The notes under the pieces are model-generated. The model had not been told where the DNA came from and ran no database searches. It worked only from the letters and a program-made list of their open reading frames with translations. Source: Bacillota bacterium (GTDB lineage Bacteria; Bacillota_I; Bacilli_A; Erysipelotrichales; Coprobacillaceae). From it: a stretch of 60,173 nucleotides of DNA. The stretch spans positions 1-60,173 of the forward strand of contig JAUNWT010000006.1 in the NCBI GenBank assembly GCA_030540195.1, given 5' to 3'. Shown one piece after another: positions 25,784-28,596 of this stretch. Position numbers and translations under genes: made by a program. Positions within the stretch are counted from its first letter, which is position 1. Each line of letters starts with the position of its first letter.

Positions 25784-26737
25784 TCAAGAATTATACCTTA
25801 AGTCATTTAAAGCTTTTGAAAGAATAGCACTTACTTTTTCTACTGTTTCATCAATTTGTTTATCTGACATCACAAAATTACGATCAACTGGTGTCAGTAT
25901 TTCATAAAGCAGCGATTCTAATTCTTCTTGTTCAAGACTCCCTACATGTCCTAATAAATACTGTTGTTGACTTGCAGAAAGTTCTCCTTCATATTTTTCT
26001 CTTTTACCCATCTTTAATTTATTTTTTATATCTAAAGCATCCCCAAAGTAATCTTTCATTAATTGAAAAACATCTCTTACAATGGAGCTGGCATAGATAA
26101 CCGTAGGAACACCAATGGCGATGACAGGACATCCTAAGGTTTCTTCTTGAATAGCTTGACGATGGTTGCCAATACCACTACCTGGATGGATTCCCACATT
26201 ATTGATTTGAATTACATGTCCTAGTTTTTGATAATCTCTTGCACATAAAGCATCAATAGCAATCACTAAATCAATTTGAAATTGGTCGACCATTGTCTGA
26301 ATCACTTCGACCGTTTCAACCCCAGTTTGATACATCACACCTGGTGTCAATGACAAAATATCATAATAATGATTTTCTAACTTAAGACCATCATCTAAAT
26401 AATGAGTGACTCGAATATCTCTTAAGGTACGAGGTCCAATAGCATCACTGGTTAAATAGGGATTTCCTAGTCCAATAATTAAAATACGGGGATAATCATT
26501 TTGATCAATCATTTCTTTTAAAAGTCGTGTGATATGTTGACTCATTGACATAAAAGATTCTTTAAAAGAAATCTCGATATACTTTCCTTTTTTTAAATAA
26601 TCTGTATCTTCTAAAAATTCATAGGTTTCTATTGAAAAATCATCCATTTTTTCAATAGAACGCTTATAATGTTTTCCTTCCTTTAATAATTCTAAAGATT
26701 CTTTTGCTAAATCACTATGTGTATTATACTTATTCAT
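25784..26737 (-). CDS. gpr: spore germination protease GPR
   Basis: 317 residues, peptidase family A25. During germination it cleaves small acid-soluble spore proteins. The conserved core includes 'IGLGNPYLTSDAIGPRTL' (~86-103), 'PGVMYQTGVETVEVI' (~131-145), 'AIDALCARD' (~158-166) and 'NNVGIHPGSGIGNHR' (~174-188), all characteristic. The N-terminal 'NTHSDLAKES' resembles the propeptide cleavage site at which the zymogen processes itself. AAGGTG precedes the ATG. It is divergent from the MATE gene; in Bacillus gpr is divergent from rpsT, which here lies one gene further on. Confidence 0.95.
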   Translation of the reverse strand: MNKYNTHSDLAKESLELLKEGKHYKRSIEKMDDFSIETYEFLEDTDYLKKGKYIEISFKESFMSMSQHITRLLKEMIDQNDYPRILIIGLGNPYLTSDAIGPRTLRDIRVTHYLDDGLKLENHYYDILSLTPGVMYQTGVETVEVIQTMVDQFQIDLVIAIDALCARDYQKLGHVIQINNVGIHPGSGIGNHRQAIQEETLGCPVIAIGVPTVIYASSIVRDVFQLMKDYFGDALDIKNKLKMGKREKYEGELSASQQQYLLGHVGSLEQEELESLLYEILTPVDRNFVMSDKQIDETVEKVSAILSKALNDLRYNS

Positions 26738-26764: not shown

Positions 26765-26798
26765 TTTCCAACAAATTACACAAAATTGTTGCAATTGC
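26765..26798. repeat. 34-bp direct repeat, copy 1 (upstream of the first MATE gene)
   Basis: Starts TTTCCAACAA and ends GCAATTGC; identical over 34 bases to 28217-28250. It contains an inverted repeat CAACAA-N11-TTGTTG next to the -35 box, and similarity continues weakly into the -10 region. The two copies bracket the MATE gene. Confidence 0.9.
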
Positions 26799-26817
26799 AT
26801 AATTTTTTATATAAACT
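26789..26817 (+). promoter_or_regulatory. promoter of the first MATE gene
   Basis: -35 TTGCAA (26789-26794), with TATAAA (26810-26815) at 15 bp or TAAACT (26812-26817) at 17 bp as -10. The -35 box and upstream bases are identical to the rpsT promoter; the -10 is weaker. Confidence 0.6.
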
Positions 26818-26846
26818 TTGTTTAGAGATAAATACAGTTTATTTCG

Positions 26847-26888
26847 AGTGTTTCAAATTTTCGCTTTAGAATTTGAAGCACTTTTTTT
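26847..26888 (+). terminator. intrinsic terminator in the leader of the first MATE gene (candidate attenuator)
   Basis: Thirteen-bp stem starting AGTGTTTCAAATT, paired with AATTTGAAGCACT (one G-U pair), 10-nt loop, then seven T. No plus-strand gene lies upstream, so it can only act on the MATE gene's own leader. AAGGAGG and the ATG follow directly. No ATG-started leader peptide is present. Confidence 0.75.
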
Positions 26889-26904
26889 GTTAAGGAGGGG
26901 CATT

Positions 26905-28212
26905 ATGAAAATCTACAAACAACTATTTTTATTCTTTTTACCGATTTTAATAGGAACTATTGTCCAACAGCTCTATTCAACCGTTGATACGATGATCGTA
27001 GGACAATTTGTAGGAAAATTAGCCCTTGCGAGTATTGGAGGTTCTGTAGCCATTATTACAGAAATCATTATTACCTTTTTTAATGGACTTGCTGGTGGTG
27101 CTTCGGTCGTCATTGCACATGCTTTTGGTGAAGATAATTCAACAAAACTTCATTCAAGTATCTTAAATGCTTATTTATTTTCTTTCATAATTGGGGTACT
27201 TTTATCTTTCTTTGGTTTTATTTTTACGCCTCAGTTACTTATTTTAATGAATACCCCAAATAAAATGCTTGCTGGTTCTATTCTTTATTTGAGAGTTTAT
27301 TTTTTAGGAATGATTTTTATTTTAATTTATAATATGGGAGCTTCTGCCTTGCGTGCTCTTGGTGATTCGCTCCACCCTTTTATTTATCTTCTGGTTTGTA
27401 GTGTTATAAATATCATTTTAGATTTAATCTTTGTTTGTATTTTTAATCTTGCCATCTTTGGTGTTGCTTTTGCGACAGTAATAGCACAAGCCATCAGTGC
27501 TTGTTTAATCACTTATACTTTAAATAAACATGTTCATTTTTTAAAAAGAAAACATCTTTTAAATTTGGATTATGCTATTTTAAAAAGAGAACTCATTATT
27601 GGTATTCCTGGAGCTTTACAAGCATGTGCTTATGGAATTTCTAACATTATTTTACAAATCGCTATTAATAGTTTTGGTACAAATTGTATTGCTGGATGGG
27701 CTATTTATGGAAAATTGGATATGATTTTTTGGGCAGCAGCAAGTGCTCTAGGAACAACAGTAACTACCTTTGTCGGTCAAAATTATGGAGCTAATAATAA
27801 AAGACAAATATTTAAAATTATTCGTATTAACACATATCTTTCTTATTTACTTTGTGGTTTGATCTTACTTATTTTGTTTATTTTTTGTGAACCTCTTTAT
27901 CAGCTTTTTACAAAAGATCAAAAAGTTATTTCAATTGCTACCTATATGTTAAGATTTTTAGCGCCTAGTTATTTAATAAGTATCTTATTAGAAAATCTAA
28001 GTGGTGGCTTACGTGGTCTAGGTGATGTTTTCTATCCAACTATTTTTACTTTTGGTAGTATCTTTTTAATACGTTTACCTTGGTTATTACTTACGAATAA
28101 ATATCACACCCTTTCACATTTATTAATTAGTTATCCGTTAGCATGGGCTTTTACAATTATCCTTTTAATACCTTATTATTTTTATCGAAAGAAAAAATTC
28201 CTACATTCTTAA
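26905..28212 (+). CDS. MATE family efflux transporter
   Basis: 435 residues and about 12 membrane segments. The N-terminal 'GTIVQQLYSTVDTMIVGQFVG' (~18-38) is the classic MatE opening, and the second repeat begins near 'IIGIPGALQACAYGISNIIL'. MATE proteins export drugs or metabolites by Na+ or H+ antiport in the cytoplasmic membrane. AAGGAGG lies before the ATG at 26905; the longer frame from 26818 covers the leader hairpin and is rejected. It lies between gpr and rpsT, flanked by two copies of a 34-bp promoter segment, and is probably controlled by the leader terminator. The substrate is unknown. Confidence 0.93.
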   Translation: MKIYKQLFLFFLPILIGTIVQQLYSTVDTMIVGQFVGKLALASIGGSVAIITEIIITFFNGLAGGASVVIAHAFGEDNSTKLHSSILNAYLFSFIIGVLLSFFGFIFTPQLLILMNTPNKMLAGSILYLRVYFLGMIFILIYNMGASALRALGDSLHPFIYLLVCSVINIILDLIFVCIFNLAIFGVAFATVIAQAISACLITYTLNKHVHFLKRKHLLNLDYAILKRELIIGIPGALQACAYGISNIILQIAINSFGTNCIAGWAIYGKLDMIFWAAASALGTTVTTFVGQNYGANNKRQIFKIIRINTYLSYLLCGLILLILFIFCEPLYQLFTKDQKVISIATYMLRFLAPSYLISILLENLSGGLRGLGDVFYPTIFTFGSIFLIRLPWLLLTNKYHTLSHLLISYPLAWAFTIILLIPYYFYRKKKFLHS

Positions 28213-28216
28213 ATAC

Positions 28217-28250
28217 TTTCCAACAAATTACACAAAATTGTTGCAATTGC
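28217..28250. repeat. 34-bp direct repeat, copy 2 (upstream of rpsT)
   Basis: Identical to 26765-26798. It starts five bases after the MATE stop and carries the -35 box of the rpsT promoter. Confidence 0.9.
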
Positions 28251-28269
28251 TTGACTTTTTATATATAAT
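28241..28269 (+). promoter_or_regulatory. sigma-A promoter of rpsT
   Basis: -35 TTGCAA (28241-28246), 17-bp spacer, -10 TATAAT (28264-28269); the leader to the ATG is only about 27 bases. Confidence 0.75.
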
Positions 28270-28302
28270 GAAATGGCAAATTGCAAAGCGAGGTGAAAGA
28301 TC

Positions 28303-28563
28303 ATGGCAAATATGAAACAACAAATTAAACGTTATAAAAACGATAACAAAAAAAGAGCTAAAAACGCTTCTTATAAATCAGCTTTAAAAACTGCAATCAA
28401 AAACGTAAGAGCTGAAGTTGAAGCTGGAAATAAAGAAGCTGCTGAAAAAGCATTAGTAATCGCTTCTAGTAAATTAGATTCTTATGTAAACAAAGGAATC
28501 CATCATAAAAACTACGCTATTAGACAAAAATCTAAATTAGCTAAATTAGTTAACTCAATCTAA
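28303..28563 (+). CDS. rpsT: 30S ribosomal protein S20
   Basis: 86 residues, highly basic, normal for S20. It starts 'MANMKQQIKRYKNDNKKR' and keeps the three-helix pattern with 'YKSALKTAIKNV' and 'GIHHKNYAIRQKSKLAKL'. It binds 16S rRNA early in 30S assembly. GAGGTG precedes the ATG. It is a single-gene unit with a strong promoter and terminator. It neighbours gpr and spoIIP as in Bacillus, except that the MATE gene lies in between. Confidence 0.98.
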   Translation: MANMKQQIKRYKNDNKKRAKNASYKSALKTAIKNVRAEVEAGNKEAAEKALVIASSKLDSYVNKGIHHKNYAIRQKSKLAKLVNSI

Positions 28564-28570
28564 TCATTGA

Positions 28571-28596
28571 AACCAGACAAATGTCTGGTTTTTTTG
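28571..28596 (+). terminator. intrinsic terminator of rpsT
   Basis: Stem AACCAGACA / TGTCTGGTT followed by seven T. Confidence 0.92.

Follow-up and report, generated by a model that had tools for sequence, protein, structure and literature searches.

In the guanidine-IV riboswitch (mepA motif), a terminator combined with a two-loop aptamer, which in C. botulinum measures about 88 nt, precedes MATE-like mepA genes (PMC12186494, PMC11611296). In Bacillus subtilis, the resistance gene vmlR is governed by a drug-induced attenuator that makes use of features of its leader (PMC9226507). Here, we analyzed a stretch of 60,173 nucleotides from a bacterium of the Coprobacillaceae (Bacillota; contig JAUNWT010000006.1), referred to as the window, in which an intrinsic terminator lies in the leader of a gene for a MATE family exporter (Table 1). 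While this leader shares with the guanidine-IV riboswitch an intrinsic terminator in front of a MATE gene, it contains neither an aptamer nor a second loop able to pair with the terminator, and it showed no match to the guanidine-IV class in an Rfam library that may itself lack this class. Like vmlR, the gene is of the resistance type, belongs to a Firmicute and has a terminator ahead of it, but a leader ORF and an antiterminator fold are both missing. Its stem-loop and seven-T tail are those of ordinary intrinsic terminators, in the upper range of the gene-end terminators of this genome; unlike these, however, it precedes a gene and has no co-directional gene upstream. The element probably just lowers expression instead of acting as a switch, and would then be a common type of signal in an uncommon place.

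Table 1. Features of the MATE locus and its neighbors, in positions of the window.
Feature	Position	Strand	Basis
gpr, spore germination protease, divergent neighbor of the insertion	25784-26737	-	
Left repeat copy (perfect direct repeat, 34 bp), with -35 TTGCAA of an rpsT-type promoter	26765-26798	+	
Alternative predicted MATE promoter	ATTACA 26775 / CATAAT 26798-26803	+	sequence inference
Predicted MATE promoter: captured -35 TTGCAA, 17-nt spacer, -10 TAAACT	26789-26817	+	sequence inference
Small AU-rich hairpin ahead of the terminator	26825-26845	+	-5.4 kcal/mol, weak
Intrinsic terminator (16-pair stem, 6-nt loop, seven-T tail)	26846-26888	+	sequence, folding, terminator comparison
MATE Shine-Dalgarno sequence AAGGAGG	26892-26898	+	sequence
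MATE family exporter, 435 aa	26905-28212	+	TIGR00797, Pfam MatE
Right repeat copy, within the native rpsT promoter (TTGCAA 28241-28246, TATAAT 28264-28269)	28217-28250	+	
rpsT, ribosomal protein S20, neighbor of the insertion	28303-28563	+	
rpsT terminator	28569-28592	+	sequence

By its sequence and fold, the element at 26846-26888 is a genuine and strong intrinsic terminator, as a stable hairpin (26846-26883) is followed directly by a U-tract (T-run at 26882-26888). The leader from 26820 to 26892 folds with an energy of -22 kcal/mol (z = -5.55), which was reached by none of 200 dinucleotide shuffles. With 93 gene-end terminators from 410 kb of this genome as reference, the hairpin energy was better than that of 96%, and the d'Aubenton-Carafa-type score of 14.5 exceeded that of 82%. 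A first, sequence-only reading of the locus had described a 13-bp stem followed by seven T that ends four bases before AAGGAGG. Hairpin, T-run and the position directly in front of the Shine-Dalgarno sequence stand, but the gap is 3 nt, and the stem reaches 16 pairs by a looser count that includes wobbles and two A-U pairs formed with the T-run, 13 bp being the stricter count. The short inverted AAATA/TATTT element noted in the same reading is present as a 9-bp AU-rich hairpin, but a weak one, equaled or surpassed by 2.7% of shuffles. The hairpin of the terminator has no second copy in the genome, and matches to its family did not exceed the level of a reversed-pattern control; a dispersed repeat was rejected on these grounds.

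The placement of the terminator was compared with that of similar hairpins in surveys covering 410 kb of the genome, for which genes were called with a simple ORF caller. For start codons with 60 nt or more of intergenic sequence in front, hairpins ending 12-45 nt before the start were counted, allowing up to 2 nt between the stem and the T-run. A terminator-like hairpin was found before 15 of 180 such starts and before 6 of 68 divergent starts, so this placement is uncommon but not unique. Most of the six hairpins at divergent starts were long or imperfect, the sole other compact one being located at L105:13760-14632, and the hairpin in the window was the strongest among all 68 divergent starts. 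This strength would fit a regulated transcription attenuator, in which a protein, a ligand or a modified polymerase suppresses the terminator so that the MATE gene is switched on at need. A T-run ending 3 nt before the Shine-Dalgarno sequence with no gene upstream is also the position of known attenuators, and guanidine-IV riboswitches act in this manner before mepA/MATE genes (PMC12186494, PMC11611296). Nevertheless, the following results make such regulation a tentative and rather unlikely explanation.

When the pairs of the terminator were forbidden, the best fold of the leader reached -5.5 kcal/mol, compared with -23.8 kcal/mol for the fold with the terminator. No alternative pairing was found within 18 kcal/mol of the terminator fold, nor was there an antiterminator, and the small upstream hairpin does not overlap the terminator. 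Thus, no built-in RNA switch is visible to folding, a one-strand method that is blind to proteins, ligand-stabilized pseudoknots and modified polymerase. The stretch of leader ahead of the hairpin amounts to only about 20-35 nt. No credible Rfam match was obtained for the window, the leader alone or about 25 homologue loci, even at E<=10, in agreement with the first reading, which had recognized no riboswitch class. As a competing fold, a conserved leader and a known RNA class were all absent on testing, an attenuator or riboswitch based on RNA folding finds no support. A ribosome-mediated attenuator was rejected, since no short leader ORF with a Shine-Dalgarno sequence lies before or across the terminator. 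Inspection of the ORFs confirmed that the leader has no ATG-started peptide; the sole short closed ORF has 6 codons, a TTG start and no Shine-Dalgarno sequence, and the remaining GTG and TTG frames continue in frame into the MATE gene. Of the attenuation layout proposed initially, the strong terminator without an upstream gene is borne out, but a conditional switch finds no support in a leader with 20-35 nt ahead of the hairpin and no alternative fold.

Conservation of the leader was analyzed in homologues of the MATE gene. A terminator ending at most 45 nt before the start was present in 2 of 29 Lachnospiraceae homologues of 41-57% identity (L120, which is the same as L039, and L150). This equals the background of 12 of 175 starts in two Lachnospiraceae genomes, and both terminators are unrelated in sequence to that of the window. 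Two further homologues (L126 and L145) have strong hairpins near the start but with poor T-tails. In homologues from the order to which the window belongs, upstream hairpins mostly lie 50-100 nt before the start, which is compatible with terminators of neighboring genes. No true orthologue was found among the genomes searched, and a conserved or covarying leader was absent in the homologues. According to the first reading, a stem-loop lacking in orthologues would refute attenuation; with no orthologue at hand and homologues at background, this is largely what we found. On the other side, the terminators of L039 (54% identity) and L150 (41% identity) at the equivalent position before the Shine-Dalgarno sequence could hint at recurrent regulation and against a passive brake, and regulation by a trans-acting factor is possible.

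The two homologues also deserve mention in their own right. The leader of L039 (2828-2940, also seen as L120), from a Lachnospiraceae MAG, has a complex structure that folds at -37.8 kcal/mol; its stems are nested, and its terminators end directly before the Shine-Dalgarno sequence. It has no Rfam match and makes a stronger candidate for a riboswitch or attenuator than the leader in the window. In L150 (G732:C1, MATE gene at 3424801-3426096), the promoter leads straight into a terminator hairpin with a seven-T tail, behind which lies the Shine-Dalgarno sequence, the same minimal arrangement as in the window.

The protein encoded in the window scores 221 bits against TIGR00797. Against the MepA equivalog it reaches 59.6 bits, far under the cut-off of 850, and an identity as MepA or guanidine exporter was therefore rejected. 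The G+C content of the gene (29.5%) matches that of the window (30.0%), so composition is silent on transfer and would make a low-G+C donor likely. No close relative was found in 43 genomes of the family or 295 genomes of the order, the best match being 44% identical, while the nearest relatives come from Lachnospiraceae (57% and 55% identity). Plasmids and viral contigs contained no close donor, and a phage or plasmid origin was rejected as nothing close was found. In the 2.57-Mb genome G000, the window protein has 29 MATE-family matches, a high count. On contig C101 of this genome, a repeat longer than 150 bp occurs in up to three copies (at 737, 3211 and 6913 of L099), one of which lies upstream of another MATE paralogue (C101:27128).

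In 16 genomes (G003, G004, G001 and 13 others), gpr and rpsT adjoin divergently with no MATE gene between them; the closest species compared are G003 (gpr 97% identical) and G004 (gpr 87%). Relative to these species, the MATE segment of about 1.4 kb is, by sequence comparison, an insertion into the rpsT promoter region. It is flanked by a 34-bp direct repeat (TTTCCAACAAATTACACAAAATTGTTGCAATTGC), identical at 26765-26798 and 28217-28250 with a spacing of 1452, which occurs only in these two copies in the genome and as a single copy in relatives. There, the 34-bp sequence makes up the upstream portion of the promoter of rpsT (-35 TTGCAA, 17 nt, TATAAT). Position 33 of the repeat is G in both window copies (TTGCAATTGC twice), A in G003 (TTGCAATTAC) and C in G004 (TTGCAATTCC); with this shared G, the duplication most simply postdates the split from G003 and G004 and is thus recent. 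In the 20 bp beyond the repeat, 14 positions match between the copies (p 0.006, shuffling), a rate that differs from the perfect 34 bp (Fisher p 0.0015); the left copy may once have held a whole rpsT promoter. A repeat at both ends that is single in relatives resembles an insertion with a flanking direct repeat and promoter capture. However, 34 bp exceeds the usual length of target duplications made by transposases, and the inserted segment has no recombinase gene. The assembly may be wrong at the repeat, although one contig contains both junctions.

The MATE gene is probably transcribed from the captured -35 and a new -10 (TAAACT) that is weaker than the native TATAAT of rpsT. With either candidate start, the leader in front of the start codon would be about 80-95 nt long, with the terminator as its sole strong structure. 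As stated in the first reading, no plus-strand gene lies upstream, gpr being encoded on the minus strand, and transcripts from any upstream promoter should therefore mostly end at the terminator. We consider it very improbable that the hairpin simply ends a separate short RNA of 65-70 nt from the captured promoter, with the MATE gene being read incidentally. The promoter-like sequence just upstream would yield exactly such an RNA, but this RNA has neither conservation nor an Rfam match. We also give a very low probability to a minimal attenuator whose leader, about 65 nt long, contains only the terminator and the 9-bp hairpin. It would sense a signal by way of polymerase speed or a trans-acting factor, and would have arisen when a mobile MATE segment captured a ribosomal-protein promoter, the exporter thereby being tied to growth.

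At its 3' end, the MATE gene has no terminator of its own (28212-28592), and its transcripts should therefore cross the rpsT promoter into rpsT, the terminator of which probably also ends them, as judged from the sequence. The right repeat begins 4 bp past the MATE stop codon. Both observations would suit a displaced 3' terminator that in the donor ended either the MATE gene, in a circular or permuted segment joined via the repeat, or an upstream gene, and that has no selected role now. A circle joined at the repeat would indeed place the hairpin about 85 nt past the MATE stop. This origin is nonetheless improbable, as a Shine-Dalgarno sequence lies directly behind the hairpin, no donor sequence was found, and neither an integrase nor a circle was seen.

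Taken together, our results favor, with a probability of roughly 0.56, an unregulated terminator in a recently inserted segment that throttles the MATE gene by partial read-through. A 1.4-kb segment composed of terminator, ribosome binding site and MATE gene would have entered the gpr/rpsT intergenic region recently in this species, the upstream half of the rpsT promoter being duplicated over 34 bp in the event, and the left copy would now provide the -35 region for the MATE gene. The terminator presumably arrived as part of the segment. Placed between promoter and gene, it would stop most transcripts at all times, and a constant minority reading through would give a low, roughly constitutive level of MATE expression that continues into rpsT.

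The locus also shows that a terminator in a leader, with no gene upstream, does not in itself point to a riboswitch. With one side carrying a duplicated piece of a ribosomal-protein promoter, the other a terminator brake, and the native promoter of rpsT left intact, it would offer a clean and datable case of how an acquired exporter gene gains its expression level.
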